From: Terriglobia bacterium
GTDB lineage: Bacteria > Acidobacteriota > Vicinamibacteria > Vicinamibacterales > CAVVIG01
Reading direction: 5' to 3'
Length of the DNA stretch: 49,753 nt
NCBI GenBank assembly: GCA_020073005.1
Contig: JAIQFX010000031.1
Coordinates: 1-49,753 of the forward strand
The notes below the pieces were generated by a model, which was not told where the DNA came from, did no database searches, and worked only from the letters and a program-made list of their open reading frames with translations. Position 1 is the stretch's first letter, and the number at the start of each line of letters is the position of its first letter. Position numbers and translations under genes: made by a program. Shown here one piece after another: positions 801 through 47,215 of the stretch.

Positions 801-1226
801 ATGGTGACGCCGCTTCAGAAGACGCTCGTGCAGGAAACATTCGCTTCGATCGCTCCGATTGCCGACGACGCCGCGGCGCTGTTCTATCGCCGGCTGTTCG
901 AGATCGATCCCGCCCTGCGCCCGATGTTCAAGGGCGACATGACGGAGCAGCGGCGCAAGCTGATGCAGATGATCACGGCCGCGGTGAAGGGCCTCGATCG
1001 TCTCGACCAGCTCGTGCCGGTCGTCGAAGATCTCGGCCGCCGCCACGCGAACTACGGCGTCGCGGATGCGCACTACGACACGGTCGGCGAAGCGCTGCTG
1101 TGGACGCTCGAGAAGGGGCTTGGCAGCGCGTTCACGCCGCAGGTGAAGGACGCGTGGGCGACCGTCTACGGCGTGCTCGCGACGACGATGAAGAACGCGG
1201 CCAGCGCGCAGCTCGCGACGGTGTGA
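801..1226 (+). CDS. Single-domain globin (Vitreoscilla/flavohaemoglobin-like)
   Basis: The gene encodes a 141-residue cytoplasmic haem protein of the bacterial myoglobin-like globin family, whose members bind oxygen or NO. Visible haem-pocket residues are Tyr29 (B10), Phe43 (CD1) and the proximal His82 (F8, in RRHANYG). The C-terminal GEALLWTLEKGLG helix is typical of the family. There is no FAD/NAD reductase domain, so it is not a complete flavohaemoglobin. The start at 801 is preceded by AGGAGAGA at 788-795. It stands alone on its strand between a divergent sigma-like gene and the convergent kinase gene. Its stop codon TGA (1224-1226) runs directly into two copies of a palindromic repeat. 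A second, diverged globin lies at 4678. Confidence 0.93.
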   Translation: MVTPLQKTLVQETFASIAPIADDAAALFYRRLFEIDPALRPMFKGDMTEQRRKLMQMITAAVKGLDRLDQLVPVVEDLGRRHANYGVADAHYDTVGEALLWTLEKGLGSAFTPQVKDAWATVYGVLATTMKNAASAQLATV

Positions 1227-1288
1227 TTCGTGGCGTCCGCCTTCAGGCGGACCTTTCTGATTCGTGGTGTCCGCCTTCAGGCGGACCT
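1225..1288. repeat. Two direct copies of the palindromic VRLQAD-type repeat
   Basis: Two near-identical 30-base units starting GATTCGTGG lie at 1225-1254 and 1259-1288. Each contains GTCCGCC-TTCA-GGCGGAC, a perfect 7-bp stem with a 4-base loop (1235-1252 and 1269-1286). The first unit begins inside the globin stop codon and the second ends 8 bases before the stop of the convergent kinase gene. They could act as a two-way transcription terminator, although no T-tract follows. Other copies are at 6116-6144 and, inside a coding region, at 22974-22991. Confidence 0.9.
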
Positions 1289-1296
1289 TGGCGTGG

Positions 1297-4077: not shown

Positions 4078-4661
4078 GACTCGTCTGGAGGCAGCGCGCC
4101 GCCCGCCGGACCGAGCGCGCGGTACAGCCACGCGCGCGCGAACTTCCACTCGTTCTTCACCGTGGCGGGGGAGACGTCCAGCGCGGCGGCGGTTTCCTCG
4201 ATGCTGAGGCCGGCGAAGTAGCGGAGCGAGACGACCTGCGCCTTGCGCGCGTCGGTCTGCTCGAGGCGCGTGAGCGCCTCGTCGATCGCCATCAGATCCG
4301 TCAGGCCGGGATCGGCGCCAGCGATGGCGCTGTCGAGCTCGACGCGCTCGCCGCCCGCGCCGTGTTTCAGGCGCTGGTAGTGGCGCGCGCGCTCGACGAG
4401 GATGCGGCGCATCGCCAGCGCCGCGGCAGCGAAGAAGTGGCCGCGCCGATCCCACTGCGCGCTCTGCCGGTCGCCGGCGACGCGCAGATAGGCTTCGTGG
4501 ACGAGCGCCGTCGGCTGCAGCGTCTGCTCGTGACGCTCGCGTGACAGCCGGGCTCTCGCCAGTTTGCGGAGTTCGTCGTAGACTTCGGGCAACAACTCGC
4601 GCGAGGAGCCGGGGCCGCCGTCCGAATCGTTGTCGGAGGTCGTCGAAGTCGGCGAAGTCAT
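4074..4661 (-). CDS. ECF-like sigma factor, TIGR02999 type
   Basis: The product (about 195 residues from the ATG at 4661) has region 2 (LLPEVYDELRKLARARL, TALVHEAYLRV, HFFAAAALAMRRILVERAR) and a C-terminal region 4 helix-turn-helix (LSIEETAAALDVSPATVKNE). This layout matches the TIGR02999 family, abundant in Acidobacteriota and Planctomycetes and often next to a protein kinase, as here. In-frame ATGs at 4676 and 4694 would overlap the divergent globin start at 4678, so I prefer 4661. CATAAT on the minus strand at 4675-4680 could be its -10 element, giving a leader of only a few bases. It probably directs RNA polymerase to promoters in a pathway controlled by the coupled kinase, but the regulon is not visible. 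Confidence 0.88.
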   Translation of the reverse strand: MTSPTSTTSDNDSDGGPGSSRELLPEVYDELRKLARARLSRERHEQTLQPTALVHEAYLRVAGDRQSAQWDRRGHFFAAAALAMRRILVERARHYQRLKHGAGGERVELDSAIAGADPGLTDLMAIDEALTRLEQTDARKAQVVSLRYFAGLSIEETAAALDVSPATVKNEWKFARAWLYRALGPAGGALPPDES

Positions 4662-4677
4662 CGGAAGCGCGCACATT

Positions 4678-5124
4678 ATGACACCGGAATCCATCGCTCG
4701 CGTGCAGGCGAGCTTCGAAGGTCTGCCGCGCGACGCTCGCGTGCTGTCCGCTCGCTTCTACGAGGAGATGTTCCGGACCGCGCCGGCGCTGCGTCCGCTG
4801 TTTCCCGCCGACCTGACGTCGCTGCAGGGGCATTTCGAATCGGCGCTGTCGCTCGTCGTCCGCAACATGCGCGAGCTCGAGGCGCTGCAGCAGCCGCTGC
4901 GCGACCTGGGCGCGCAGCACATCGGCTGGGGCGCGCGTCCGGCGGACTACCTCGTGGCGCGCGAGGCGCTCATCAGCGCGATCCGGTCGCTGTCGCCGTC
5001 GTGGGACGCCGTGCTCGAGGCGGACTGGCGCCACGCCATCACGGCCATCGTCGTCCCGATGCTGCAGGGCGCCGCCGTCGAAACCGCGCTCGCCGCCGAG
5101 CGGCTGGCCGCGGAGCTCGGCTGA
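4678..5124 (+). CDS. Second single-domain globin
   Basis: This 148-residue globin differs clearly from the one at 801. It keeps Tyr28 (B10), Phe42 (CD1) and proximal His81 (in LGAQHIGWG), so haem binding is expected. CGGAAG at 4662-4667 may be the ribosome binding site. The gene diverges from the sigma factor, with only 16 bases between the starts, so the promoters must overlap. Its stop codon overlaps the start of the zinc dehydrogenase as TGATG, which implies co-transcription and coupled translation. Pairing with an oxidoreductase suggests a role in oxygen, NO or redox handling, but that is inference. Confidence 0.9.
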   Translation: MTPESIARVQASFEGLPRDARVLSARFYEEMFRTAPALRPLFPADLTSLQGHFESALSLVVRNMRELEALQQPLRDLGAQHIGWGARPADYLVAREALISAIRSLSPSWDAVLEADWRHAITAIVVPMLQGAAVETALAAERLAAELG

Positions 5125-6116: not shown

Positions 6117-6144
6117 ATTCGTGGCGTCCGCCTTCAGGCGGACC
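6116..6144. repeat. Palindromic VRLQAD-type repeat at gene end
   Basis: A third copy of the GATTCGTGG...GTCCGCC-TTCA-GGCGGAC unit starts at the last base of the dehydrogenase TAG stop. The perfect hairpin is at 6126-6143. It lies 40 bases before the next start, so it could attenuate transcription into the deacylase gene. Confidence 0.88.
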
Positions 6145-8908: not shown

Positions 8909-9478
8909 ATGAGACACGAATCCAACCGGGCGCCGGTGCGGGTCGCCCCGCAGGTTGACCCGCAAATATCAGACAAAGACTGGGTTAGCTTTCCCGGCGG
9001 CGAGCTCGAAGGGCAGCGGCCGAAGACGCTCTGCCGGGCCTGCCGCGAGATCCTGCGGCGTGAGGCTCTTTTCCCTACCAGCCTTACCCGCCCCACAGAC
9101 CCTACCAGCCCATCCAGCCCCTCCCGCCCGCTCTGCTTCCAGTGCTATCGCGCGGAACTGGATCGCGAGCGCGCGCTGGCGGCGGCGGGGCAGCTGGACA
9201 CGGCGTCCGACGCGCGATTCCAGACGCAGCTGCCGTTCGAGCCGGTCAACACCGCGCGGCTGCAGACGCTGAAGGCGGAGCGCGCGGAAGCGCGCGTCGA
9301 GGCGCGGCGCGGCATCGGGCAGTACGTGGACAAGCGGCGCCAGGCACAGATCGCCGCGCGGCACGCGCTGCAGTCGATCGCCGCCGGCCTCAAGGCGCGG
9401 CAGATTCCCGTCGACGCGATTCACGCGGCCGAGATGCAACTGCCCGACGCGTGGCTCCCGTTCGTCGTGTCGCGATAG
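8909..9478 (+). CDS. Hypothetical protein with two CxxC motifs split by a repeat-derived insert
   Basis: I do not recognise a named family for this 189-residue protein. It has CRAC near residue 48 and CFQC near residue 75, a likely zinc-binding pair. A long charged helical region follows (about 95-165), rich in Glu, Arg and Ala. The stretch between the two CxxC motifs (about residues 55-73, composed of Pro, Thr and Ser) is encoded by a CCCTACCAGCC-type repeat at 9073-9130, so the finger has been lengthened by repeat DNA. TAGACT sits 6 bases before the ATG, which suggests a leaderless mRNA. RmuC follows 20 bases downstream and may be co-transcribed. Confidence 0.7.
   Translation: MRHESNRAPVRVAPQVDPQISDKDWVSFPGGELEGQRPKTLCRACREILRREALFPTSLTRPTDPTSPSSPSRPLCFQCYRAELDRERALAAAGQLDTASDARFQTQLPFEPVNTARLQTLKAERAEARVEARRGIGQYVDKRRQAQIAARHALQSIAAGLKARQIPVDAIHAAEMQLPDAWLPFVVSR
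9073..9130. repeat. In-frame CCCTACC/CCCGCCC-type word repeat inside a CDS
   Basis: The 58 bases are built of short C-rich words (CCCTACCAGCC, TTACCCGCCCC, CCCTACCAGCCC, CTCCCGCCCG). The same words in reverse complement appear inside threonine synthase at 47011-47045. The repeat keeps the reading frame and encodes a Pro/Ser/Thr-rich loop between two CxxC motifs. Confidence 0.8.
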
Positions 9479-16672: not shown

Positions 16673-17323
16673 ATGCTGCAATCAGCGCTGCCGTTCGATG
16701 AACCGGGAACGGCGAATCCCGAACCAGGAACCCTGAACCCCGAACCAGGAACCCTGAACCCGGTACCCGGTACTCTGAACCCGATCTTCGTTCGTCACCC
16801 CCGCGCCCGCCGCTACGTGATTCGCGTCGCCGACGATGGGACCGTGCGCGTCACCGTTCCGCGCTGGGGCTCGACGCGCGAGGCGCAGGCATTCGCCGAG
16901 CAGCAGCGCGCGTGGATCGAGAAGCAGCGGCGGCGGGCGGAGCAGGATCGGCTCGAACCGCGGCCGGCGCCGCTCGCGCCGGACGTCGAGCGCGCGTTCC
17001 GCGCGCGCGCATCACGCGAGCTGCCGGCGCGGCTGCTCGAACTCGCGGCGCAGCACGGGCTCACGGTCTCGCGCGTCAGCGTCCGCAATCAGCGCTGGCG
17101 CTGGGGCTCGTGCTCGCCGAACGGCCACATCTGCGTGAACTGGCGCCTCGTCACCATGCCGGAGTGGGTGCGCGACTACGTGCTGATCCACGAGCTGATG
17201 CATCTGAAGCGGCTCGATCACTCGCCGAAGTTCTGGAAGCTCGTCGCGCAGGCGTGTCCCGCGTTTCAGGACGCGCGGCGCTACCTGCGCAGCCACGGAT
17301 CGAACACGCTCGTCGTCAGCTGA
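16673..17323 (+). CDS. SprT/YgjP-like zinc metalloprotease
   Basis: The 216-residue protein belongs to the M48-type YgjP/SprT-like family (formerly DUF45). The zinc motif HELMH is at 173-177, and a third ligand His183 lies in LDHSPKF. The preceding conserved RNQRWRWGSCSPNGHICVNWRL segment is diagnostic. The substrate is unknown. Residues 11-37 are a tandem PEPGTLNP-type stretch encoded by repeat DNA and not part of the family core. I chose the ATG at 16673; an upstream TTG at 16634 in the same frame is possible. The 3' end overlaps the convergent DUF1295 gene by 43 bases. Confidence 0.9.
   Translation: MLQSALPFDEPGTANPEPGTLNPEPGTLNPVPGTLNPIFVRHPRARRYVIRVADDGTVRVTVPRWGSTREAQAFAEQQRAWIEKQRRRAEQDRLEPRPAPLAPDVERAFRARASRELPARLLELAAQHGLTVSRVSVRNQRWRWGSCSPNGHICVNWRLVTMPEWVRDYVLIHELMHLKRLDHSPKFWKLVAQACPAFQDARRYLRSHGSNTLVVS
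16699..16783. repeat. In-frame tandem GAACCAGGAACCCTGAACCC repeat
   Basis: About four degenerate copies of a 21-base word follow each other near the 5' end of the metalloprotease gene. Because 21 is a multiple of three, copy-number changes would keep the frame. The encoded unit is PGTLNPE. It lies before the conserved catalytic core and is likely an unstructured tail. Confidence 0.88.
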
Positions 17324-18948: not shown

Positions 18949-19016
18949 GGTGGCTGTGACTGGTGGCTGGTAAAGCACTGACAGCTGATAGCCGACAGCT
19001 GAGAGCTGATAACTAC
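18949..19016. repeat. Two word-repeat families beside an aminopeptidase stop codon
   Basis: At 18949-18972 lies a GGTGGCTG/ACTGGTGGCTGG stretch. At 18977-19016 lies a run of ACTGACAGCTGA-type words (ACAGCTGATA, CCGACAGCTG, AGAGCTGATA), several of which are self-complementary (CAGCTG). The last bases are shared with the TAG stop of the aminopeptidase at 19013-19015. Related copies are at 24981-25050, 38221-38249, 39440-39471 and 41674-41721. Confidence 0.85.
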
Positions 19017-20224
19017 GGATTCGGGACGACGAGCTTCCCGTTGTTCACCCACGTGACGCCGCCGACGGTCACCGTGAGATCGGTGAAGAAGTTCCAACGT
19101 ACATACGCCTGCTCTGAGCCTGTCGAAGGGCCGCCGACCTGGCCGCCGAGCTCGGTGTTGTCGCCGAGCGAGAGCCGCACGACGCCGGATCCGTACCCGT
19201 AGTACGGAATCCACGGCGCGCGATCGGGGACGGCGAGCAGCGGATTGAATCCCAGTCCGAACTCGCGGAAGCTGCGGCCCGCGTCGCCGTTCCTGGCGAT
19301 CTCATCTCGTGCTGCTTGCGCGGTCCCCGGCGTCGCCGCAACCTCGACGATTCGTCCTTTCGCGAATCGCAGCTTCAGCGCGTCGACCGGCCGGCCGTCC
19401 CACTGCGATGGAGGAAACGCGATCACGCCGTCGACCGTCTCTTCGAGCGGCGCGACGCGGATCGCGCCCGCGGGCAATTCGATCTCGTGATCGATCAGGA
19501 TGGTGCCTTGCGCCGCGCGCGCGGCCGACGCGTCGCCGTCCTGGAAATTCACGGGCCGATTGCCGGCGCGGAACCGCAAGTCGGTGCCGATCGGCGACGT
19601 GATGCGCACCTCGCCCGAGGCCAGCGCCGCGGCGAACCGGCGCTCGACGCCGGCGAGCGCCGTGTAGTCGGTCTGCAGCAGCGCGTGCTGGTACAGCGCG
19701 TCGATCGCGGGCCGGGGCGGCAGCGGCTGGCCCGGAAGCATGTACGCGCTGCCGTTCTCCACCCAGTGGAAATGGATCGTCCGGCGGCCGCGGTGTTCGG
19801 TGAGGTCGTCCTTCAGCCAATCCTGCATCGCCGCGTAGGCCGGATGCGCGGGCGTCGCGCCGGGCATCATGATCGCGGCGTCGACGTCGCGGAACATCGC
19901 CTTGTAGTACGCGCGCGACTCGCGCGCGCCTTTCTGCAGCACCGCGGGGTCAAAGGATTCCGGCACCGGCTCCGACAGGATCTCGACGACGCCGAGGTCG
20001 ATGCCGCCGGCGCGCATGACTTCGTACCGGATGTGCGGCAGGAGATCGGTCCAGACGCCGGGCTGCGCGATCGACAGGACGCGCTCGCCCGGCTTCAAGG
20101 CCAGCTGCTGTACGAGCCGTTTGGCGATGGCGGGGTAGTCGAGCGTCAGGCGGGGCTGCGCGACGAGCGTGGCGCTGAACAGTGCCGTTGCGACCGCGAG
20201 CGTGAATCTTTTCGAGAGTGGCAT
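19013..20224 (-). CDS. Exported aminopeptidase, M29-like
   Basis: The 403-residue product has a signal peptide (about 1-22). The body resembles M29 aminopeptidases: LVQQLALKPGERVLSI near the start, a central RFAAALASGEVRITSPIGTDLRF segment and a C-terminal GELGFG-like EFGLGFNPL. M29 enzymes are dimetal aminopeptidases; I cannot verify every metal ligand, so activity is not proven. ATG at 20224 has CGGAGC upstream. Residues PSTGSEQ near the C-terminus come from a TTCGACAGGCTCAG-type repeat. The TAG stop is the first triplet of another repeat. It follows the DUF5666 lipoprotein gene on the same strand. Confidence 0.75.
   Translation of the reverse strand: MPLSKRFTLAVATALFSATLVAQPRLTLDYPAIAKRLVQQLALKPGERVLSIAQPGVWTDLLPHIRYEVMRAGGIDLGVVEILSEPVPESFDPAVLQKGARESRAYYKAMFRDVDAAIMMPGATPAHPAYAAMQDWLKDDLTEHRGRRTIHFHWVENGSAYMLPGQPLPPRPAIDALYQHALLQTDYTALAGVERRFAAALASGEVRITSPIGTDLRFRAGNRPVNFQDGDASAARAAQGTILIDHEIELPAGAIRVAPLEETVDGVIAFPPSQWDGRPVDALKLRFAKGRIVEVAATPGTAQAARDEIARNGDAGRSFREFGLGFNPLLAVPDRAPWIPYYGYGSGVVRLSLGDNTELGGQVGGPSTGSEQAYVRWNFFTDLTVTVGGVTWVNNGKLVVPNP
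19113..19131. repeat. In-frame CCCTTCGACAGGCTCAG repeat
   Basis: The minus-strand words CCTTCGACAGGCTCAGAG match a short repeat seen in intergenic DNA of many bacteria (this last point is from memory). Here it lies inside the aminopeptidase gene and encodes PSTGSEQ without breaking the frame. Confidence 0.65.
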
Positions 20225-24996: not shown

Positions 24997-25050
24997 AAAG
25001 GGAAAACTGAGAACTGACAGCTGACAGCTGACAGCTGACAGCTGTCAGCT
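24981..25050. repeat. GAAAACTGA / ACAGCTG tandem repeat at a stop codon
   Basis: AAACTGA-type words (24982-25016) are followed by four direct GACAGCT copies and a GCTGTCAGC end, so the 3' part can fold as a hairpin (GCTGACAGC with GCTGTCAGC). The regulator's stop codon TGA (24994-24996) lies within it. The rest of 25051-25183 holds a small GGCC-CGTACA-GGCC hairpin and the cupin leader. Confidence 0.88.
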
Positions 25051-33535: not shown

Positions 33536-33625
33536 CATTGCGGAGTGCGGATGGCGGAATGCGGATTTGATTGTGGATTGTCTTTTCACTCCGCATTCCG
33601 CACTCCGCATTCCTCAATCCGCAAT
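33536..33625. repeat. Imperfect inverted repeat of GCGGAATGCGGA words
   Basis: The left arm (33536-33565) has words TTGCGGAGTGCGG and GGCGGAATGCGGA, and the right arm (33590-33625) has the complementary TCCGCATTCCGCACTCC. They enclose an AT-rich loop (33566-33589). It lies 2 bases after the M14 stop. A second gene's coding remnant begins right after it, as if the element had replaced its start. Confidence 0.85.
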
Positions 33626-33921: not shown

Positions 33922-35546
33922 CGAAAACACACGCCGCGCTCGCTCTTGGATTCGCTTCCGTACTGGTGGCGGGTGCCGCCGCGCAACGTGGACGCGGCGG
34001 CGCGCCGTCCATGCCGACCGCGCCCACGCCGCCCGGGCCGCCGCGCGTCGAGGAGCTCAAGCGCGAAGCGGCGGCCGAGGTCGAAAGCCAGCGCGTGTTC
34101 ACGCAGCAGATGGTCGATCAGGTGTTCAGTTTCGGCGAGCTCGGGTTCCAGGAATTCGAGACGTCGAAGTACCTGACCGGCATCCTCGAGAAGAACGGCT
34201 TCAAGCTCGAACGCAGCTACGCCGGCATTCCGACCGCGTGGACGGCGACGTGGGGATCGGGCAAGCCGGTGATCGCGATCGGATCGGACATCGACGACAT
34301 CCCGCAGGCGTCGCAGAAGCCGGGCGTCGGCTACAAGGACCCGATCATCGAGGGCGCGCCCGGCCACGGCGAGGGCCACAACTCCGGCGTGCCGCTCAAC
34401 ATCACGGCGGCGCTCGCGGTGAAAAAGATCATGGAGCGCGAGCATCTCCCCGGCACGCTGAAGCTCTGGCCGGGCGTCGCCGAGGAGCTCGTCGGCACGA
34501 AGATGTACTTCATCCGCGCCGGCATGTTCCGCGACGTCGACGTGTCGCTCTTCGCGCACGTCGGCGCGAACCTCGGCGTCAGCTGGGGCGGCGGCTTCGG
34601 CACGGGCCTGCAGTCGGTCGAGTACACGTTCAAGGGTGAGAGCGCGCACGCCGCTGCCAACCCATGGCGCGGCCGTTCCGCGCTCGACGCCGTGGAGCTG
34701 ATGGACACCGGCTGGAATTTCCGCCGGGAGCACCTGCGTCTGCAGCAGCGCTCGCACTATGTGATTTCCAATGGCGGCGATCAGCCGAACGTCGTCCCGT
34801 CGAACGCGGCGGTCTGGTACTACTTCCGCGAGACCGACTATCCGCACATCAAGGAACTGCGCGAGATCGGCGACACGATGGCGAAGGCCGCGGCGATGAT
34901 GACCAACACTGAAGTGTCGTGGCGGATTCTGGGCGCCGCGTGGCCGCAGCACATGAACAAGACCGTCGCCGAGACGATGTACGCGAACATTCTCAGCGTC
35001 GGCCTGCCGAAATGGGATGACGCGGACGTGACGCTCGCGAAAGGCATCCAGCGCGAGTTGAAGCAGCCGCAGATCGGACTCGCGACGCAGGTCGGCGCGC
35101 TGCGCGGCGGTCTCGATCCGGAGCAGAACATGGGCGGACCGTCCGACGACATCGGCGACGTGTCGTGGAACGTGCCGACCGTGACGCTCAGTTATCCGGC
35201 GAACATTCCGAATCTGCCCGGCCACAACTGGGCGAACGCGATCGCGATGGCGACGCCGATCGCGCACAAGGGCGTGACCGCCGGCGCGAAAGTGCAGGCG
35301 ATGACGATCATCGACATGCTGATGCGGCCCGAGCTCGTCACGTCAGCCTGGGACTACTTCAGGAACGTCCAGACCAGGGATCAGAAGTACATCCCGTTCA
35401 TCACCGACAAGGACGAACCCGCGCTCTGGCTGAACGCGACGATCGAGGAGAAGTACCGCCCGGAGATGAAGAAGTACTACTACGACCCGACGAAGTACAA
35501 GAGCTATCTCGAACAGTTGGGGATTAAGTACCCAACTGTTCGCTGA
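33918..35546 (+). CDS. Exported M20-family amidohydrolase/peptidase
   Basis: The 542-residue protein has a signal peptide (about 1-22) and a Pro-rich linker. The M20 domain has GSDIDDIPQ and GHGEGHNSG (metal and catalytic residues), VAEELVGTK with Glu-Glu, and GESAHAAANPWRGRSA in the lid domain. Relatives are aminobenzoyl-glutamate hydrolase-like (AbgB) amidohydrolases. It likely cleaves amide bonds of small peptides or acyl amino acids in the periplasm. GAGG precedes the ATG. With the M14 and S9 peptidases it suggests external protein degradation. Confidence 0.9.
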   Translation: MTKTHAALALGFASVLVAGAAAQRGRGGAPSMPTAPTPPGPPRVEELKREAAAEVESQRVFTQQMVDQVFSFGELGFQEFETSKYLTGILEKNGFKLERSYAGIPTAWTATWGSGKPVIAIGSDIDDIPQASQKPGVGYKDPIIEGAPGHGEGHNSGVPLNITAALAVKKIMEREHLPGTLKLWPGVAEELVGTKMYFIRAGMFRDVDVSLFAHVGANLGVSWGGGFGTGLQSVEYTFKGESAHAAANPWRGRSALDAVELMDTGWNFRREHLRLQQRSHYVISNGGDQPNVVPSNAAVWYYFRETDYPHIKELREIGDTMAKAAAMMTNTEVSWRILGAAWPQHMNKTVAETMYANILSVGLPKWDDADVTLAKGIQRELKQPQIGLATQVGALRGGLDPEQNMGGPSDDIGDVSWNVPTVTLSYPANIPNLPGHNWANAIAMATPIAHKGVTAGAKVQAMTIIDMLMRPELVTSAWDYFRNVQTRDQKYIPFITDKDEPALWLNATIEEKYRPEMKKYYYDPTKYKSYLEQLGIKYPTVR

Positions 35547-35561
35547 ATTGGGTCATCTGCT

Positions 35562-35623
35562 CATCTGGTTATCTGGTCATTGATTGGTTCAAAGGATCAA
35601 CCAAATGACCACATAACCAGATG
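35562..35623. terminator. Long inverted repeat between convergent genes
   Basis: Left arm CATCTGGTTATCTGGTCATT (35562-35581, continuing to 35589) pairs with AACCAAATGACCACATAACC and following bases (35599-35623). It sits between the convergent M20 and AlgX-like genes and can form a strong stem in both directions, so it is a probable two-way terminator. The TCTGGT words also make it look like the other word-built repeats. Confidence 0.75.
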
Positions 35624-35638
35624 GCTCGATGATCACAT

Positions 35639-36754
35639 TCACCTCTCGGGGACCAGCTCTGGTGACGGGATGAAGCTATAGAGATGTCGCCCGACGATCT
35701 CCTGAATGACGACGTCGGGGCGCTCTTTCGTCACGAGGTCGGCGTCGAAGTCGTTCTGCCAGACATAGACCGCGCGGCTGAAGTGTTCTGACAGAAACGG
35801 CACGAGCCGCGAGACGAAGGAGTCGCGGAAGATCACGGCGCGGGGCAGCGACGGATCGTCGATCGCGGTGACGATCCGGCCCAGCTCGTCCGTCGGCTGC
35901 GCGCCCGCCGGCTCGACCACGCGCGCGCGCCGGGGCCGTCGCGGCACGAGCGTCATGTCCGTCTCGCGCAGGACGCGCGAGAGCCCGATCATTCTCCCGA
36001 GATCCATCGCCGGCACCTCGCGGTCCACGGCGTCGAAATCGTCGCGCGACCATGCCGCCGGCGTCGCCGGGACCCGCAACCGGACGGCGTTGACGATCTG
36101 CTGGTACGCGATCAGCGCGCCGCGATCGTTCCAGTGCGTGTCCGTGCGCTGGTAGATGCGCTCGCGCGCGCTGGCCTCCCGGAGGGCCGGCCGCACGTCG
36201 ACGGCGACGCCGAGATCCTGCAGCGCGGTATACAGCTGATCGGTGCGGGAAAGATCGCCCACCTGCGCGAGTCCCGGCGGCAGTTCGTCAGGATAGATGA
36301 CGTGTTTGTCCGGCGCGACGGTGAAGATGTACGGCACGCCGTCCGGACGTTGTCTGCGCAGCCAGTCGCGCGCGCGCACGATCGCCTCGCGCCAGTTCGC
36401 GAGCGCGTCCGGCGTCATCGGATCGATCCGGGCGAAGTCGTCGAGCGACGAGTCGTCGGCGTAAAACAGCCAGCCGTCCTGGCCGCTCGCGACGGACGTC
36501 GACGGCGAGACGCCGAGCACGAACAGCCGGCTTTCGCCGTACCACCGGATGAGCGTCGCGCGAAACCCGAAGTGATCCTCGAACCAGTCGCCGGGGCTGT
36601 CCCAGGCGAACGCGGCCAGCTCGCGATTTTCCGCGCCGGGGTCGGCACCGTCGACACCCGCGAGGTTCGCCGCCAGCGGGAGCGAAATCACGAGGACGAA
36701 ACAGGCGACGAGGAGGGCACGGCCGGCCTGAAGGCCTGCGCTACGGTCAGACAT
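35639..36754 (-). CDS. AlgX/AlgJ-like O-acetylation protein
   Basis: The 371-residue protein has an N-terminal membrane anchor (about 12-30) and an SGNH-like periplasmic domain. Seen are DGWLFYADD, FTVAPDKHVIYPDELP, the catalytic-type QRTDTHWNDRGALIAYQ, and FRDSFVSRLVPFLSEHF (Ser). These match AlgX/AlgJ, which O-acetylate exopolysaccharides together with an MBOAT protein such as the upstream neighbour. The ATG overlaps the MBOAT stop by one base (TGATG). Residues 4-11 (RSAGLQAG) are encoded by a CGTAGCGCAGGCCTTCAGGC-type repeat. No polysaccharide synthase is in the window. Confidence 0.88.
   Translation of the reverse strand: MSDRSAGLQAGRALLVACFVLVISLPLAANLAGVDGADPGAENRELAAFAWDSPGDWFEDHFGFRATLIRWYGESRLFVLGVSPSTSVASGQDGWLFYADDSSLDDFARIDPMTPDALANWREAIVRARDWLRRQRPDGVPYIFTVAPDKHVIYPDELPPGLAQVGDLSRTDQLYTALQDLGVAVDVRPALREASARERIYQRTDTHWNDRGALIAYQQIVNAVRLRVPATPAAWSRDDFDAVDREVPAMDLGRMIGLSRVLRETDMTLVPRRPRRARVVEPAGAQPTDELGRIVTAIDDPSLPRAVIFRDSFVSRLVPFLSEHFSRAVYVWQNDFDADLVTKERPDVVIQEIVGRHLYSFIPSPELVPER
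36721..36748. repeat. In-frame GCAGGCCTTCAGGCCGGC repeat at a gene start
   Basis: On the minus strand the words CGTAGCGCAGGCCTTCAGGC overlap codons 4-11 of the AlgX-like gene. GGCCTTCAGGCC is near palindromic. I recall similar words between genes of related bacteria, but only this copy is seen here. Confidence 0.55.
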
Positions 36755-38223
36755 CAGAATCTGAAATAGATGAACGGGTTGTACGTCCGCGCGGCCATCT
36801 GCATGACGGACGCGACGAGGATCGCGACGAGCGCGGTGACGCCGGCGAGCGAGGCGCTCCACGCGACGCCGGGCGTCTTCGATCGCGACACGCGTTCAGC
36901 CAGCGCGGGCACCCACGGCGCCGATCCCAGCGCGCCGGCCAGCAGCGCGAGCCAGAGCTCAGGCGTGAGGTACCACTGCACCGTGTACGGCGACGGCGCT
37001 GCGTCGGTCAGGCCTGCGAGCGCCTTCAGAAACGCGATGGCGTCTGTCAGCGTGTCCGCGCGGAAGAAGACCCAGCCAATCATCACGACCAGCATCGTGT
37101 AGATGTGGGGCCAGATGGGCCAGGAAAGAATCGGTCGATTGGGTGATTGAGTGGTTGGGTGATTGGGTGATTGGACGAGCCGCTCGATCACGAGGAACGC
37201 GCCGTGCCAGAGGCCCCAGATGACGAAATTCCAGCTCGCGCCGTGCCAGAGACCGCACAGAAAAAACACGGCGACGAGATTGCGGTACTGCCGGCCGACG
37301 CTGACGCGGTTCCCGCCGAGCGGAATGTAGAGGTAGTCGCGGAACCACGTAGAGAGCGACATGTGCCAGCGCCGCCAGAAGCCCTGCACGCTGTTCGCGA
37401 TGTACGGCCAGCGGAAGTTCTCGGGGAAGCGGAAGCCGAACATCCGTCCGAGGCCGATCGCCATGTCGGAGTAGCCGGAGAAGTCGAAGTAGATCTGCAG
37501 CGTGTAGCAGGCGAGGCCGAGCCACGCGTGCGCGGCCGACACCTGATCGGCCGGCATGGCGAAGATGCGGTCCGCCGGTCCCGCGACGACGTTCGCGATC
37601 AGCACCTTCTTCCCGAGGCCGACGACGAACCGCTGCACGCCGTACGCGAAGCCGTCCAGCGACACGCGGCGCCGCGCGAGCTGATCGGCGATGTCGCGGT
37701 ACCGGATGATCGGGCCGGCGATGAGCTGCGGAAAGAGCAGCAGGTAGAGCGCCGCATGGACCGGGCTCTTCTGCGCCACCGCGTCGCGGCGCGAGACGTC
37801 GATGACGTACGAAATCGCGTGGAACGTGAAGAACGAGATGCCGATCGGGAGCAGCACGCGCGGCGCGTGCACCGGCGGAACGTCGAGCGCGCCGAGCAGC
37901 CCGTTGACGTTGTCGGCGAAAAAGTTGGCGTACTTGAAGACGCCGAGCACGACGAGGTTGATCGCGACCGCCGCCGCGAGCCGCGCGCGCGCGGCCGGCG
38001 TGCCGTGCGCGCGATCGACGGCGATCGCCATCACGTAATTGAAGGCGATCGACGCGAGCATCAGGAGCGTGAACCAGCCGCCGCCGGCGGCATAGAAGAG
38101 GACGCTCGCGATCAGCAGGAGCCAGTTGCCGTACGCGCCGTGCTCGCGCGAGAACGTGACGAAGTAAAGTCCGAGGAGTACCGGAAGAAAAAGAAAGAGA
38201 AATCTCGGTTCGGTGAAGAGCAC
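36754..38223 (-). CDS. MBOAT family O-acyltransferase (AlgI/DltB-like)
   Basis: The 489-residue polytopic membrane enzyme has about eleven hydrophobic helices. It shows the MBOAT signature with YFDFSGYSDMAIGLGRMFG, RRWHMSLSTWFRDYLYIP and the catalytic His in LWHGASWNFVIWG. It moves acyl groups across the membrane to the AlgX-like partner. The GTG start (38223-38221) lies inside the AGAGCTGACAG-type repeat and has no clear ribosome binding site, so the repeat supplies the start codon. Residues near 350-363 (QSPNHPTTQSPN) come from a GATTGGGTGATTG repeat. Confidence 0.93.
   Translation of the reverse strand: MLFTEPRFLFLFLPVLLGLYFVTFSREHGAYGNWLLLIASVLFYAAGGGWFTLLMLASIAFNYVMAIAVDRAHGTPAARARLAAAVAINLVVLGVFKYANFFADNVNGLLGALDVPPVHAPRVLLPIGISFFTFHAISYVIDVSRRDAVAQKSPVHAALYLLLFPQLIAGPIIRYRDIADQLARRRVSLDGFAYGVQRFVVGLGKKVLIANVVAGPADRIFAMPADQVSAAHAWLGLACYTLQIYFDFSGYSDMAIGLGRMFGFRFPENFRWPYIANSVQGFWRRWHMSLSTWFRDYLYIPLGGNRVSVGRQYRNLVAVFFLCGLWHGASWNFVIWGLWHGAFLVIERLVQSPNHPTTQSPNRPILSWPIWPHIYTMLVVMIGWVFFRADTLTDAIAFLKALAGLTDAAPSPYTVQWYLTPELWLALLAGALGSAPWVPALAERVSRSKTPGVAWSASLAGVTALVAILVASVMQMAARTYNPFIYFRF
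37137..37175. repeat. In-frame GATTGGGTGATTG tandem repeat inside MBOAT gene
   Basis: GATTGGGT words (with variants GATTGAGT and GGTTGGGT) repeat about five times. The minus-strand translation is QSPNHPTTQSPNRP, which lies in a loop between membrane helices where extra residues are tolerable. Confidence 0.85.
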
Positions 38224-38249
38224 TGAGAGCTGACAGCTGAGAGCTACTG
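38221..38249. repeat. ACAGCTGA-type repeat joining two genes
   Basis: On the plus strand the sequence reads CACTGAGAGC TGACAGCTGA. It supplies both the MBOAT GTG start (38221-38223) and the TAG stop of the exported methyltransferase (38244-38246). It is of the same type as 18977-19016 and 25012-25050. Confidence 0.85.
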
Positions 38250-39439: not shown

Positions 39440-39471
39440 TCACCAGCCACCAGCCCCTAGCCACCTACCAG
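39440..39471. repeat. GGTGGCTGG-type repeat providing a stop codon
   Basis: On the minus strand it reads GGTAGGTGGCTAGGGGCTGG followed by TGGCTGGTGAC. The histidine kinase C-terminus (LVGG) and its TAG stop (39459-39457) are inside it. Related copies are at 18949-18972 and 41674-41721. Confidence 0.85.
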
Positions 39472-40969: not shown

Positions 40970-42991
40970 TCAGCGCTGCGCGGTCGACGCGCCTCCCCCC
41001 GACAGGTACTTCTCGTACCACGCGACGATGCGGTTCAGGCGATCGAGGAGGTGCTTCTCTTCGCGCAGCCCGTGCGGCTCGCGCGGGTAGAGCACGAGGT
41101 CCGCGTCGACGCCGTACCGCTTGAGCCCGCGGTAGAACTGCTGGCTCTGGCCGATCGGATCGGTCGTGTCGTCCTCGCCCTGCAGCAGCAAGGTCGGCGT
41201 CTTCACGTTCTTGACGAAGGTCATCGGCGAGCTCTTGATGAAGCCGTCGAGCTTGTCTCGTTCGTATGGCGTGCCGTAGAACCACTCGTCGTAGGCCGAG
41301 CCGTTTTCAGTGCCGAATTCGCTCGCCATGTCGATGACGGGCGCGCCGGACACCGCGGCCTTGAAGCGCGTGGTCTGCGTCACCGCCCACGCGGCCATGT
41401 AGCCGCCGTAGGACCAGCCGCCGATGCCGAGGCGATTCGGATCCGCGATGCCGCGCGCGATCGCCCAGTCCACGCCGGCCATCACGTCCTTGAAATCGCC
41501 GCCGCCCCAGTCCGCGCGGTTCATCTCGACGAAGCGCTGGCCGTACCCGGTCGACCCGCGGACGTTCGGATAGAGGACGGCGTACCCGCGCGCCGCGAGC
41601 AGCTGTCCCCACGGCTCGAAGGTGTCGGACCAGCGGCCGGTGGGACCGCCGTGGACCAGGACGACGAACGGATGTGGCTGGTGGCTGGTGGCTGGTGGCT
41701 GGGACGTGGTGGCTGGCGGCTGAAGAAGCGCGGCTTCGATCTCGACGCCGTCGAAGCTCGTGTACTTGACGAACTCCGGCGCGACGACTGGGATCGACGC
41801 CCACTGCTGGTTGACAGTCGTCACCGCGTGCGCCGGCGAGTCTGTGAGTCGCCGGCTCGTGAGATCGGCGTCGGCAAACTTGATCCACACCTCCGGCGCC
41901 TTCGTCGCCGTCTCGCCGACGTAGGCGATAAGGGGACGGGAGTCGTTGGCCGCCTCAGACGACTCCCGTCCCCTTGTCACCGCGAACGCCGACGGGTTGA
42001 CGCCGATGTTGTCGATCATCTGCGCACGCCCGCCGGCATCGACAATCGCCAGCGTGCTGGCGAACCCGCGCGCGACGTGCACGGCGAGCACACGGTTGTC
42101 GATCCACTTCGGCTGCGACGCAGGCTTGTCGAAGGCGGACGCCGTCAGATTGCGCGCCGCGCCGCCGGCGGCCGGCAATACGAATACGTCGTGCGCATCC
42201 GGACCGTCGACCCGGGCGCCGACGTACGCGATCGTCTTGCCGTCCGGCGACACCGCGAGCGCGCCCATCGGCCCGCGCGGAGCGCCGATCTCGGTGAACC
42301 GGCCGTCCTTCACGTCGATCGAGTAGATGCGCTCGTTCCATTGATCGGAGGCGGGATTCGGACTCGCGGCGGCAATCAGGCGATCGCCGGAGGGCAGCCA
42401 CTCGATCTGGCCGATGCGCCAGTTGCCGTTGGTGATCTGCGTGAGCGCGCGTGACGCGAGGTCGAGCATCCAGATCCGCGCGCGCCGGTCGTCCTTGTCG
42501 ACGACGCGGCTGTCGTCCTTGTCGCGCTCGCGGGTGCGCTGCGCCTCGGGCGTCGGCTCCGTCATCATCAGCGCGATGCGCGCCCCATCCGGCGACCACC
42601 GGAACGCGCCGACGGCTTCGCGGCGGTCGGTCAGCTTTTCCGCTTCGCCGCCGCGCATCGACAGGCGATAGAGCTGCGAGGGCCCTTCACGATCCGACGT
42701 GAACGCGATCGCGCTGCCGTCCGGCGCCCAGCGCGGCGATCCGTCGCTCTTGCCGGAAAACGTGAGCGGCCGCGCGCGGCCGCTGCCGATGTCGAGCACC
42801 CAGATCGCGCGCGCGCGTGCGGCGCCCGTGACGGGTTCGGTCACGGTGAAGACGAGGCGCGATCCGTCGGGAGAGAACTCGAGATCGCCGATGGCGCGGC
42901 GGTCCAGCGTCTGTTCCGGCGTCAGCGGGGAGGCCTCTACCACGAACAGGCTCGCGGCGATCGCCAGCGTCACGAAGGTCAGGTGTTTCAT
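40970..42991 (-). CDS. Exported S9-family peptidase (prolyl oligopeptidase-like)
   Basis: The 673-residue protein has a signal peptide (about 1-20), a beta-propeller (about 35-420, with LEFSPDGSRLVFT-type blades) and an alpha/beta hydrolase domain (about 425-665). The catalytic triad is Ser527 in GWSYGGY, Asp near 608 in GEDDTTDP and His640 in PREPHG. It likely cleaves short peptides or acyl-aminoacyl bonds in the periplasm. Two repeat elements are in frame: a GGGACGGGAGTCG inverted repeat in the propeller and a GGTGGCTGG repeat between propeller and hydrolase. Both fall in surface loops or linkers. The gene is joined to the histidine kinase. Confidence 0.93.
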   Translation of the reverse strand: MKHLTFVTLAIAASLFVVEASPLTPEQTLDRRAIGDLEFSPDGSRLVFTVTEPVTGAARARAIWVLDIGSGRARPLTFSGKSDGSPRWAPDGSAIAFTSDREGPSQLYRLSMRGGEAEKLTDRREAVGAFRWSPDGARIALMMTEPTPEAQRTRERDKDDSRVVDKDDRRARIWMLDLASRALTQITNGNWRIGQIEWLPSGDRLIAAASPNPASDQWNERIYSIDVKDGRFTEIGAPRGPMGALAVSPDGKTIAYVGARVDGPDAHDVFVLPAAGGAARNLTASAFDKPASQPKWIDNRVLAVHVARGFASTLAIVDAGGRAQMIDNIGVNPSAFAVTRGRESSEAANDSRPLIAYVGETATKAPEVWIKFADADLTSRRLTDSPAHAVTTVNQQWASIPVVAPEFVKYTSFDGVEIEAALLQPPATTSQPPATSHQPHPFVVLVHGGPTGRWSDTFEPWGQLLAARGYAVLYPNVRGSTGYGQRFVEMNRADWGGGDFKDVMAGVDWAIARGIADPNRLGIGGWSYGGYMAAWAVTQTTRFKAAVSGAPVIDMASEFGTENGSAYDEWFYGTPYERDKLDGFIKSSPMTFVKNVKTPTLLLQGEDDTTDPIGQSQQFYRGLKRYGVDADLVLYPREPHGLREEKHLLDRLNRIVAWYEKYLSGGGASTAQR
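41674..41721. repeat. In-frame GGTGGCTGG tandem repeat in S9 peptidase
   Basis: About five GGTGGCTG words occur in direct order. The minus-strand translation is QPPATTSQPPATSHQP, at the linker that leads into the hydrolase domain. It belongs to the family of 18949-18972 and 39440-39471. Confidence 0.88.
41930..41975. repeat. Perfect 17-bp inverted repeat in S9 peptidase gene
   Basis: AAGGGGACGGGAGTCGT at 41930-41946 and its exact complement at 41959-41975 enclose 12 bases. The frame is kept and the insert encodes TRGRESSEAANDSRPL in a propeller loop. A near-copy lies inside homoserine kinase at 45058-45098. Confidence 0.93.
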
Positions 42992-43028
42992 AAGTTGATG
43001 CGACTTACCTTAGCATTAGAGCCTGACG

Positions 43029-43874: not shown

Positions 43875-43893
43875 GAAGGCAGGAAGGTCGAAG

Positions 43894-44922: not shown

Positions 44923-44933
44923 CCACAAGTAAG

Positions 44934-45911
44934 ATGTTCGCCAGCATGGATTCAGTGACGGCCTTTGCGCCGGCCACCGTCTCGAACGTCGCGTGCGGAT
45001 TCGACGTGCTCGGGTTTCCGCTCGAGTCGCCCGGCGACGAAGTCACGGCGCGCTTTTGGGGACGGGAGTCGCCCGCCCGTGATGCGACTCCCGTCGCCAA
45101 CGTCCGGATCGACGAGATCCTTGGCGACAACGGCCGGCTGCCGCGCGACGCGGCCCGCAACACGGCCGGCGTCGCCGCGCAGGCGCTGCTCACGCGGCTC
45201 GGCGAGCGACGCGGCGTCGCGCTCACGATCCGCAAGGGCCTCCCGCTCTCGAGCGGCCTCGGCGGCAGCGCCGCGAGCGCCGTCGCGGCCGTCGTCGCGG
45301 TCGACGCGCTGGTCGGCGCGCACTCGTCGCTCGAGACGCTGATGTCCTGCGCCTTCGAAGGCGAGCGCATCGGCGCCGGATCCGCGCACGGCGACAACAT
45401 CGGCCCCGCGGTCTACGGCGGATTCGTCCTCGTGCGCGTCGCCAATCCGCCCGACGTCATCCGTCTGCCGGTGCCGGCCGGCCTGACCGCGGTCGTCGTG
45501 CATCCGGATCTCGAAATCGAAACCGCGAAGGCGCGCGCGCTGCTCGGCACGACCGTGCCGCTGGCCGACGCGATCCGCCAGTGGGCGAATCTCGGCACGC
45601 TCGTCGACGCGCTGCATCGCGGCGACTTCGCGCAGCTCGCGCGGTCGCTCGAAGACACGATCGCCGAGCCCCGGCGGGCGACGCTCGTCCCTGGACTCGC
45701 CGCGATCAAACAATCCGCGCTCGACGCCGGCGCCCTGGGCTGCAGCCTCTCCGGATCGGGACCGTCGCTCTTTGCGTTGTGCCGCGACGCGCGGTCGGCC
45801 GCCGCGGTGGCGGCGGCGATGACGCGCAGCGTCAAGCAGCACATCGGCGGTGAACCGCAGACCTACGTGTCGCCGATCTCGACCCGCGGCGCTCGCGTGA
45901 TCGCGCGATGA
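44934..45911 (+). CDS. thrB: Homoserine kinase
   Basis: The 325-residue cytoplasmic GHMP kinase phosphorylates homoserine with ATP on the way to threonine. Family motifs are APATVSNVACGFDVLGFPL, the ATP loop PLSSGLGGSAAS (104-115), and GCSLSGSGPSLFAL. The ATG at 44934 is the first of two; ATG 44946 is also possible. The gene ends in an ATGA overlap with thrC. Residues about 43-56 (GRESPARDATPVAN) are encoded by a GGGACGGGAGTCG inverted repeat that does not break the frame and lengthens an N-terminal loop. Confidence 0.95.
   Translation: MFASMDSVTAFAPATVSNVACGFDVLGFPLESPGDEVTARFWGRESPARDATPVANVRIDEILGDNGRLPRDAARNTAGVAAQALLTRLGERRGVALTIRKGLPLSSGLGGSAASAVAAVVAVDALVGAHSSLETLMSCAFEGERIGAGSAHGDNIGPAVYGGFVLVRVANPPDVIRLPVPAGLTAVVVHPDLEIETAKARALLGTTVPLADAIRQWANLGTLVDALHRGDFAQLARSLEDTIAEPRRATLVPGLAAIKQSALDAGALGCSLSGSGPSLFALCRDARSAAAVAAAMTRSVKQHIGGEPQTYVSPISTRGARVIAR
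45058..45098. repeat. Inverted repeat in frame within thrB
   Basis: GGGGACGGGAGTCGC (45058-45072) and GCGACTCCCGTCGCC (45084-45098) form a 15-bp stem with one mismatch and an 11-base loop. It is a near copy of the element in the S9 peptidase at 41930-41975. The two host proteins are unrelated. Confidence 0.92.
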
Positions 45912-47215
45912 AGTTCCTGTCGACGCGCGGCGGCGCGCCGCCGGCGTCCTTCACGACGGCGCTCTTCGACGGCCTCGCGCCCGACGGCGGGCTCTACGTT
46001 CCGGAAAAGATCGAACCGTGGACCGCGAGCGAGCTCTCGCGCCTCCCGCGCCGGACGCTGACCGAAATCGGCCTGCGCGCGCTGCGACCTTTCACGCGCG
46101 GCGAGATCGATCCCGCCGTGCTCGAAGCCGTCGTCGTCGAGGCGCTGAACTTCGACATCCCGCTCGTCGAAGTCGAGCCCTGGATCTTCGCGCTCGAGCT
46201 GTTTCACGGGCCGACGCTCGCGTTCAAGGACGTCGGGGCGCGCGTGATGGCGCGGTTGATGGCGTCGCTGCATCAGGCGGAGGAGCCGCTCACGGTCCTC
46301 GTCGCCACGTCGGGCGACACGGGCAGCGCGGTCGCGCACGCCTTCCATCGCGTGCCGCACACGCGGGTCGTCATCCTCTATCCCGACGGACGCGTCAGCC
46401 CCACGCAGGAGGCGCAGTTGACGATGTTCAACGGCGAGCGCACGAACGTGCGGGCGTACGCCGTGTCGGGCAGCTTCGACGACTGTCACCGGCTGACGCG
46501 CGAAGCGTTCGGCGACGCGGCGCTGCGGACGCGGATGCGGCTGACGTCGGCGAACTCGGTCAACGTCGGACGTCTGCTGCCGCAATCGGTCTACTACTTT
46601 CACGCCGTCGCGCAGGCGCACGCCGCGACACCCGTCACCTTCTGCACGCCGAGCGGCAACTTCGGCAATCTGACCGCGGGGCTGATGGCGAAGCGCGCTG
46701 GATTGCCCGTCGAGCGTTTCGTCGCCGCGACCAACGTCAACGACGTCGTGCCCGCGTACCTCGAGACGGGCCGCTACCAACCGCGCGCGTCGATGGCGAC
46801 GCTGGCCAACGCGATGGACGTCGGCCACCCGAGCAACTTCGAGCGCATGACGTGGCTCTACGGCGGCGATCTCGACGCGATGCGCCGCGACATCGTCGGC
46901 AGCCGGCACACCGACGATGACGTGCGCGCGACGATTCGCGACGTCTTCGAGACGCGCGGCTACCTGCTCGATCCGCACAGCGCGATTGGATACATGGGAT
47001 TGAAAAGACAGATGGGGCGGGTAGGGCAGGTGGGGCGGGTGGGGATCTTCCTGGCGACCGCGCATCCCGCGAAGTTCGCCGAGATCGTCGAACCGATCAT
47101 CGGCCGGCCCGTCGAGAAGCCCGCGCCGCTCGCCGACGCGCTCGCGCGGCCGCGCTACATCATTCGAATCGACGCCTCGCTCGATGCGGTCCGCGGACTG
47201 CTGACGACCGACTAG
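45908..47215 (+). CDS. thrC: Threonine synthase
   Basis: The 435-residue PLP enzyme converts O-phosphohomoserine to threonine. It has an N-terminal MKFLSTRGG and SFTTALFDGLAPDGGLYVP, the PLP lysine Lys107 in LAFKDVGAR, and TSGDTGSAVAHAF for phosphate binding. The ATG overlaps the thrB stop (ATGA). Residues about 370-380 (QMGRVGQVGRVG) are encoded by a GGGGCGGGTAGGG repeat, located between conserved elements near the C-terminus. It is the long, yeast/E. coli-like type. Confidence 0.95.
   Translation: MKFLSTRGGAPPASFTTALFDGLAPDGGLYVPEKIEPWTASELSRLPRRTLTEIGLRALRPFTRGEIDPAVLEAVVVEALNFDIPLVEVEPWIFALELFHGPTLAFKDVGARVMARLMASLHQAEEPLTVLVATSGDTGSAVAHAFHRVPHTRVVILYPDGRVSPTQEAQLTMFNGERTNVRAYAVSGSFDDCHRLTREAFGDAALRTRMRLTSANSVNVGRLLPQSVYYFHAVAQAHAATPVTFCTPSGNFGNLTAGLMAKRAGLPVERFVAATNVNDVVPAYLETGRYQPRASMATLANAMDVGHPSNFERMTWLYGGDLDAMRRDIVGSRHTDDDVRATIRDVFETRGYLLDPHSAIGYMGLKRQMGRVGQVGRVGIFLATAHPAKFAEIVEPIIGRPVEKPAPLADALARPRYIIRIDASLDAVRGLLTTD
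47011..47045. repeat. In-frame GGGGCGGGTAGGG repeat inside thrC
   Basis: GATGGGGCGGGTAGGGCAGG is followed by TGGGGCGGGTGGGGA. It is the complement of the word set at 9073-9130. The frame is kept. Confidence 0.85.

Follow-up and report, generated by a model that had tools for sequence, protein, structure and literature searches.

Why does a single bacterial contig carry so many different short repeat words, scattered between its genes and inside them? This question is raised by contig JAIQFX010000031.1 of a Terriglobia bacterium, 49,753 bases that we analyzed as a whole (contig C103; here, the window). A first-pass annotation of this sequence described at least ten families of word-like repeats, which keep the frame inside genes, and suggested that a single host-driven or RmuC-sensitive process might lie behind them all. 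The number of families, their dispersal, and their presence in conserved enzymes are real and unusual. The many families reduce, however, to palindromic elements and tandem arrays of 7-, 8-, and 9-nucleotide (nt) units, and what we see is very probably the overlap of two kinds of short repeat, each with its own driver, in an acidobacterial genus rich in repeats.

The window belongs to a draft metagenome-assembled genome (MAG) of 5.86 Mb in 179 contigs. From this genome we sampled 848 kb (40 stretches plus the window), 90% coding and with 10.3% of bases intergenic, and we compared it with up to 1.17 Mb of a sister species (G022) and with 193 genomes of the class. Background was modeled with 100 fourth-order Markov simulations of the window and one simulation for the 848-kb sample. 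The closest named records are groundwater MAGs titled "Acidobacteria bacterium": L106, and L078, which matches at 85 to 88% DNA identity over long collinear segments. More remote relatives include a Luteitalea MAG (L087), and we accordingly regard the source as an uncultured acidobacterium, probably a member of the same class as Luteitalea.

Every listed word was located in the window where the annotation had placed it. The R2 core GTCCGCCTTCAGGCGGAC occurs at 1235, 1269, 6126, and 22974, and GGGACGGGAGTCG inverted repeats occur at 41933 and 45059. GGTGGCTGG blocks lie at 18962, 39443 (-), and 41680-41716, ACAGCTGA blocks at 18981, 25017, and 38233 (single matches at 11081 and 36232 look like chance), and GGGGCGGG/CCCTACC blocks at 9073-9106 and 47014-47039; five single blocks stand at 37137, 16721, 33554, 19114 (-), and 36726 (-). 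Neither GTCCGCCTTCAGGCGGAC (4 observed) nor GGGACGGGAGTCG (3 observed) arose in any of the 100 simulations. Genome-wide, GTCCGCCTTCAGGCGGAC is found at 48 places and a double-arm R1/R4 pattern at 60, with 0 for the reversed-pattern control of either, so that the counts are far above random expectation. For tandem repeats the window alone is weak evidence. Two runs of at least 11 occur at lag 7, one at lag 8, and one at lag 9, where the simulations gave means of 0.2, 0.13, and 0.19 and maxima of 2, 1, and 2, respectively; CCACCAGCC was counted 4 times (simulated mean, 0.5; maximum, 3). A search for over-represented words recovered both the palindromes and the tandem words, plus further palindromes.

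The palindromic words of the window (GTCCGCC-TTCA-GGCGGAC, GCAGGCC-TTCA-GGCC, and GGGACGGGAGTCG) have no transposase linked to them within the window, as had been noted, but the genome tells otherwise. It encodes four Y1/IS200-like (Y1_Tnp) proteins, and all four genes are flanked on both sides by a palindrome family of their own: R1 (GGGACGGGAGTCG; element end sequence, AAGGGGACGGGAGTCGG) at L010 (G000:C106:14121), R5 (CGGGGTCGGACC) at L009, R3 (GCGAGCCTTTCAGGC) at L012, and GTAGCGCGACCCTTTCAGGGTCGCG at L011. The R1-linked protein L010 matches PF01797 and contains NHWH and RYVERNALKAGL segments, which we take to be the HUH motif and the catalytic-tyrosine region, respectively. In sister species G022, R6 (GGGTCC-TTTC-GGACCC) flanks transposase L067 on both sides and is present in 38 copies in 374 kb, versus 0 in the 848 kb of our genome. 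R3, with 21 copies in those 848 kb, also flanks L063 of another genus on both sides, and R2 does the same for L064 (G002) and L072 (G016), both from sister genera; in three more relatives, R2 lies near a transposase, on one side at L060 and L062 and at a distance on each side at L068. The double-arm R1/R4 pattern occurs 5 and 6 times in two sister species, once each in G001 and G103, and not once in the other 188 of the 193 class genomes. The hairpin repertoire differs between species and goes with the local transposases wherever the two can be linked.

The R2 stems covary (GTCCGCC/GGCGGAC and GTCCGGC/GCCGGAC), and by sequence reading the feet are GTGG in R2 and GTAG in R3, R7, and the L011 repeat, with a few copies deviating. 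The palindromic words are apparently repetitive extragenic palindromic (REP) elements of the RAYT/TIRYT type, which the linked transposases would have moved. They would thus be non-autonomous single-strand transposable elements, REP or terminal inverted repeat (TIR), dependent on Y1 tyrosine transposases.

We next examined where the palindromes reside. In the 848-kb sample, 22 of 24 copies of the stop-free R1+R4 family (GGGACGGG[AG/TC]TCG; R4, GGGACGGGTCTCG; single arms included) lie in genes. The corresponding counts are 15 of 27 for R2, 5 of 21 for R3, 2 of 7 for R5, and 2 of 6 for R7, with 16 of 21 R3 copies and 12 of 27 R2 copies intergenic. Out of six frames, the R1 arms (centre set as N) leave six open, R2 five, and R3 four. 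Surveying 51 distinct full R1/R4 elements of the about 60 in the genome, we found 38 wholly within genes, 8 at gene edges, and 5 in intergenic DNA. The carriers include enolase, PurL, leucyl-tRNA synthetase (LeuRS), QueC, an FGGY kinase, a DEAD helicase, a GyrA-type subunit (two elements), trigger factor, alanine racemase, DprA, and another class I tRNA synthetase; a prolyl oligopeptidase carries single R1/R4 arms, and an MrfA-type DEAD helicase gene (L161:11301-13757, minus strand) carries four full elements. Pfam matches, obtained for 18 of the 20 R1/R4 carriers that were run, name the carrier and not the position of the insert within a domain.

Comparison with the sister species reveals insertions at the DNA level: a 30-nt empty site at window position 36721, a gain of 36 nt in trigger factor, and a gain of 74 nt at a gene end. 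In this comparison, 5 of 19 REP sites had no usable sister interval, and 15 of the 51 R1/R4 elements were mapped to the sister genome. At two places of the MrfA-type gene where our genome has R1, the sister species has unrelated palindromes. Enolase has gained 14 residues relative to its best PDB match (1iyx) and 10 relative to the E. coli enolase rows.

Within the window, an R1 element of 42 nt (14-bp arms, 14-nt centre) lies at 41932..41973, in frame in the S9 peptidase gene 40970-42991 (-), and a second lies at 45058..45098, in frame in the GHMP-kinase (homoserine-kinase-like) gene 44955-45911. Both inserts of the S9 peptidase, the R1 element and a heptamer array, are absent from all three aligned homologues (L079, L108, and L080). 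The inserts of the GHMP-kinase and of threonine synthase were aligned with 24 relatives each, some of them lacking data in the region. The GHMP R1 insert is common to the genus members L078 and L106, and the other relatives with data have no such insert, except L089. This relative from outside the genus carries a longer, different but related palindrome (GGGGGACGGGAG...CTCCCGTCCCCC; L089:1065-1275) in the same loop, which would mean that insertions favor this spot or that the TIR families are related. R1/R4 insertions shared within the genus (GHMP, QueC, L139, L158, and aldo/keto reductase) are older. Two R2 REP elements (GTGG-YGTCCGCCTTCAGGCGGAC, hairpin, TTCA loop) occupy 1230..1286 (+), in intergenic DNA after a globin gene; another, at 6121..6143 (+), lies just 3' of the alcohol-dehydrogenase-like gene 5124-6116. 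The R2 element at 22969..22991 (+) lies inside gene 21459-23294, which encodes an ABC-F-like ATPase, at a point past the second ABC domain match and ahead of the C-terminal domain, and sister genome G022 has no R2 at the matching site. An R7 REP element (GTAG-CGCAGGCCTTCAGGCCGGCC) at 36721..36744 (-), between the ALGX-like and MBOAT genes, faces the clean 30-nt empty site in the sister genome. A single TTCGACAGGCTCAG-type palindromic word at 19114..19130 (-), in gene 19013-20224, is present as had been described but constitutes no family here, with 1 copy in 848 kb. Separately, L078 has a 21-nt in-frame insert with TTCGACGGGCTCAGGGC (L078:92) that is missing from the window; this palindromic word is rare in our genome and resembles the word at 19114, at a different site.

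Frame keeping was checked against homologues for the S9 peptidase, GHMP-kinase, and threonine synthase inserts. It looks like survivorship, with stop-free units and elements dominating within genes; purifying selection on any insertion would yield both frame keeping and a location at gene ends. Insertion itself may be nearly blind to genes, in which case the in-gene survivors would be those with no stop in the reading frame, a net length in frame, and a place in a surface loop or linker.

The non-palindromic words have a different structure. Exact self-match runs of at least 12 in the 848-kb sample number 47 at lag 7 versus 0 in the Markov model, 39 versus 1 at lag 14, and 17 versus 1 at lag 21; lags 6 and 8 are at background (2 versus 2 and 2 versus 1), and a smaller signal appears at lag 9 (10 versus 2). 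The sister species has 84 lag-7 runs in 1.17 Mb. The period is 7 for GTGGCTG, ACAGCTG, GAACCCT, and CGGAATG, 8 for GATTGGGT and CATCTGGT, and 9 for GGGGCGGGT and CCCTACCAG. A 9-nt family, with words such as AACCACGGAGGACACGGAGG, is over-represented in the samples of our genome and of G022. Of 78 heptamer loci, 63 (81%) are intergenic and 15 are in genes, against 10.3% intergenic bases (p about 7e-48). Units that are stop-free on both strands make up 17 of 19 arrays in genes and 30 of 80 outside (p = 6e-5). Because 7 is not a multiple of 3, successive units fall in different frames, and any unit with a stop soon places one in each of them; an in-gene bias toward stop-free units is therefore what survivorship predicts.

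The arrays also draw on a limited vocabulary. Seventy-one loci use 33 unit classes (random, 69; minimum, 64), the top class accounting for 10 loci; the sister genome has 20 of these classes as well (random, 7; maximum, 14), and 88% of units are one substitution away from another unit (random, 44%; maximum, 67%). Units change stepwise along many arrays. The CGGAATG family is a dispersed composite hairpin, in which an identical irregular 29-nt stretch recurs at L026:11524 and L041:9697. We considered whether the heptamer is a fixed core with three variable letters, but arrays had 4.31 polymorphic phases compared with 4.25 expected (83 arrays). Nor is all of the heptamer vocabulary genus-specific; this holds only in part, with the ACCAGCC unit concentrated in the genus and arrays of other units found elsewhere. 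ACCAGCC was detected in 8 of 193 class genomes, with 68 overlapping matches in our genome, 150 and 39 in sisters, and 2 to 9 in each of the five others (in one of these, control matches are just as numerous). In 315 kb of other class genomes there were 17 lag-7 runs, of which a single genome supplied 9, and relatives L079 to L111 without L106 yielded 10 in 508 kb; both counts are of non-N runs, 2 N-runs having been dropped from each. A distant class member, L219 (G066), has 9 lag-7 runs in 17 kb, several of whose units (CCGGCTT, CGCACTG) fall outside the lexicon of our genome.

These features are consistent with the non-palindromic words being degenerate arrays of 7-nt, or less often 8- or 9-nt, units that persist at gene junctions and in tolerant loops and that may expand and drift through replication slippage or unequal exchange. 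The shared lexicon suggests that seeds also spread or that generation is strongly biased. One alternative is that heptamer arrays arose independently at each site by polymerase slippage only, with no spread between loci. This is possible, though doubtful. A heptamer bias in many prokaryotes is described in excerpts of PMC4679880 and PMC4692102, which cite a 2007 survey, and the presence of lag-7 arrays built from other units elsewhere in the class fits independent origins. The shared, connected lexicon and the identical irregular 29-nt stretch at two loci speak against it.

A less likely alternative is that selection maintains the heptamer arrays and hairpins as functional elements, such as terminators or RNA-stabilizing hairpins at gene ends. 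Heptamer loci are in excess in convergent spaces (12 loci in 7.5 of the 79 kb of intergenic DNA) and in deficit in divergent ones (7 loci in 19 kb), which would be expected of such elements, but this orientation bias also fits simple promoter avoidance. At window 35544..35641, an octamer hairpin (CATCTGGT...ACCAGATG) is matched in the sister genome by an octamer hairpin of another unit, in keeping with a conserved function. Against this, many arrays have no inverted partner nearby, some lie inside genes, and array content turns over between species. Among eight heptamer loci mapped to the sister and judged by eye, the unit family matches at four, a different type of array stands at two, and two have no array, although one of these empty sites (C122:59455) rests on a loose mapping. 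At C122:38336, a heptamer array in our genome corresponds to an octamer hairpin in the sister species. For 20 array groups compared with the sister genome, 4 had no map and 2 were mapped without a usable interval. Tolerant places persist while their repeat content changes.

The arrays of the window are as follows. (GTGGCTG)n at 41674..41716 (+), a unit stop-free on both strands, is in frame in the S9 peptidase gene, in the linker that precedes the hydrolase domain. The intergenic tract at 18962..19008 (+) comprises a GGTGGCTGG block followed by ACAGCTG-like units, and an array at 24983..25050 (+) drifts from AAAACTG to ACAGCTG, with an AAAACTG/AAAAGTG array at the matching junction of the sister genome. 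Between the MBOAT and methyltransferase genes lies an AGAGCTG/ACAGCTG array (38222..38246, +), where L078 has different units. A GAACCNN array at 16700..16773 (+), upstream of or within the 5' part of a YgjP-like gene, could not be mapped in the sister stretches. At the junction of genes 38959-39432 and 39457-40968 is a decayed (CCACCAG)n array (39441..39470, +); the matching L078 stretch lacks it, although the two genes that follow are missing there as well. The composite heptamer hairpin CGGAATG...CATTCCG (33540..33625), in intergenic DNA, is absent from the sister genome and has kin hairpins with shared irregularities elsewhere in our genome. An octamer array, (GATTGGGT)n at 37137..37174 (+), corresponds in the sister genome to a 9-mer array and an R6-like REP. 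Of two nonamer arrays, the CCCTACCAG-like array at 9073..9130 (+) falls in the open reading frame 8909-9478, which has no Pfam match, and (GGGGCGGGT)n at 47014..47044 (+) is in frame in a loop of threonine synthase whose length varies in most relatives. Threonine synthase genes 70 to 75% identical to that of this genome also turn up under the titles Bifidobacterium breve (L111) and Acidimicrobiia (L083), in what may be MAG contigs that were mislabelled or contaminated.

That one common host-driven process, for example an RmuC-sensitive one, generates all families is very improbable. The families do share a gene-end location and frame keeping, and an RmuC family gene lies in the window (9499-10788, +), which probably prompted the remark in the annotation. 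Yet palindromes and heptamer arrays differ in structure, in location, and in the mechanism that we infer for them: palindromes pair with specific transposases, whereas no such link was seen for heptamer arrays, and R1/R4 shows no depletion from genes in the sample (22 of 24 copies are genic), in contrast to most heptamer arrays, of which genes hold 15 of 78. The frame keeping fits survivorship, and the RmuC gene had no visible tie to the repeats, though no direct test was made. We would explain the alike behavior of different families by the same places being tolerant while their content turns over, rather than by a common engine. That the in-gene inserts are ordinary ancestral loops is least probable of all: loop length does differ among most relatives for threonine synthase, and a few have short extensions in the GHMP loop, but the checked R1 inserts are missing from most homologues, the trigger factor site is cleanly empty at the DNA level in the sister species, enolase carries 14 residues that 1iyx lacks, and the S9 inserts are absent in three of three relatives.

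Several points weigh against the two-kind explanation that we favor. No R2- or R4-flanked transposase was found in our own genome, and 18 of 29 transposase loci had none of ten known words, in a search confined to those words; L011 is one of these 18 and was later seen with its own palindrome. In G023, transposase L056 has R6 on one side only and, judging from locus coordinates, not adjacent, and a motif search there gave no HUH-like segment. Although all six frames of the R5 consensus are open, genes hold only 2 of its 7 copies; a stop filter thus does not fully account for the palindromes. The 38 of 51 R1/R4 elements that lie wholly in genes fall below the 90% coding fraction (p 0.002), though 46 of 51 overlap a gene. 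For the arrays, slippage alone gives no account of the shared lexicon and no seed carrier was found, and the null for the lexicon is composition-only. Finally, the genome is a draft in 179 contigs with a contamination estimate of 4.63, and gene calls come from our own simple model.

The R1/R4 elements raise the further question of what transposition copies. Their arms, of about 14 to 16 nt, were perfect in 14 of 22 sampled copies (reversed-arm control, 0); the centre measures 13 to 16 nt in 46 of the 50 elements listed, and most elements span 41 to 44 nt. Among exact-arm copies, 10-nt centre cores have a mean identity of 0.367, compared with 0.342 +/- 0.008 when shuffled, and 1 of 325 pairs is at least 80% identical. 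A joint reading, which we offer tentatively, is that transposition might copy only the arms and write a new centre of about 14 nt, while the heptamer lexicon might be copied between loci by an unknown carrier. Since REPIN spacers are known to be less conserved (PMC3116915, in excerpt), this behavior may be the extreme of a known property. Centres are recognizable by descent in QueC, L139, L158, and GHMP versus L106 (9 to 12 of 14 positions by eye where ungapped), and the aldo/keto reductase centre (L161:8983) is partly diverged.

Some observations speak against non-copied centres. Mean core similarity is three standard deviations above shuffled, 6 of 1,275 centre pairs reach 0.7 with gaps allowed, and a single gene has two elements 166 nt apart (L152:1500 and L152:1666) whose centres agree at 12 of 13 positions, perhaps by local duplication. 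At the orthologous FGGY kinase site (L160:974), the centre in one species bears no relation to that in the other, as might result from replacement or from a second insertion. Two other origins for the centres were considered. An origin as host target sequence is not supported, given the net gain of 36 nt in trigger factor relative to the sister genome and of 14 residues in enolase relative to 1iyx. Fitting less well with a non-host centre are the gain of 10 residues over E. coli enolase, the 11 residues gained by the S9 and GHMP proteins, the roughly 5 to 7 gained by LeuRS and PurL over distant PDB homologues in our own reading, and the small gain of trigger factor over distant homologues; in these cases host residues were probably lost, or ancestral loops differed. 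Copying from nearby DNA is not favored either, the longest match being 6.86 versus 6.64 shuffled (51 elements).

One further feature of the window lies outside the repeats: at 1297-5034 (-), a long frame combines a protein kinase domain with WD40 repeats, and its upstream part overlaps an extracytoplasmic function (ECF) sigma factor gene called at 4074-4661.

REP/REPIN, TIRtron, and heptameric simple sequence repeats (SSRs) are already known kinds, and we compared our repeats with excerpts of the literature on each. Like RAYT-REP/REPIN systems (PMC8266576, PMC3116915), R2, R3, R6, R7, and the L011 repeat have a GTAG/GTGG foot and many copies, and Y1 transposase genes are flanked by matching palindromes; unlike in those systems, about half of R2 copies are in genes (15 of 27), and R2-flanked transposases were found in sister genera but not in our genome. 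R1/R4 is REPIN-like in its two inverted conserved ends, near-fixed spacer length, and lower spacer conservation. In having dimers that flank a Y1 transposase, R1 also resembles TIRYT/TIRtron elements (PMC3733652); R1/R4 has no GTAG and starts GGGGAC, and its GGGGACGG is one position off the published motif GGGGWSAS, which only some TIRs share. The same excerpt singles out an Acidobacteria TIRYT group and reports in-frame REPs within genes for several species, as well as some in-gene palindromes without a known dedicated transposase. The present elements differ from the TIRYT/TIRtron elements described there in that 22 of 24 sampled copies are in genes, including core enzymes, with up to four full copies per gene, and in that the centres of dimers mostly have nothing in common from one copy to the next. 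Rickettsia palindromic elements (PMC3733652) are likewise in-frame palindromic inserts in functional protein genes, but here a linked transposase is identified, most elements are 41 to 44 nt, and the host is unrelated.

Heptameric SSRs include a further family, the cyanobacterial STRR. Those in the excerpts consulted are GGGAATC in Xanthomonas and GGGGA(T/C)T in Nostoc (PMC4692102) and TAACTGA in Beggiatoaceae (PMC4679880). Our arrays resemble these in their 7-nt units (degenerate in Xanthomonas), mostly intergenic location, some inverted pairs, and variable arrays at matching gene junctions of sister species. They differ from the single unit studied in the PMC4692102 excerpt in having dozens of unit classes per genome, often shifting along one array. 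Among the literature matches listed, no title concerned these repeats in this class, and the combination, the density, the large lexicon, the gene tolerance of one family, and the behavior of the centres were absent. What may be new is the mixture of repeats, the occurrence of unrelated families at matching gene positions in sister species, and arms that recur around a mostly non-recurring centre of about 14 nt.

Taken together, in-frame palindromic inserts in essential proteins, tied to a specific transposase, provide a testable system. With unrelated repeat families at matching gene positions in sister genomes, turnover becomes measurable. If centres are indeed not copied, miniature transposons would have a new property, and each insertion would bear its own natural barcode.

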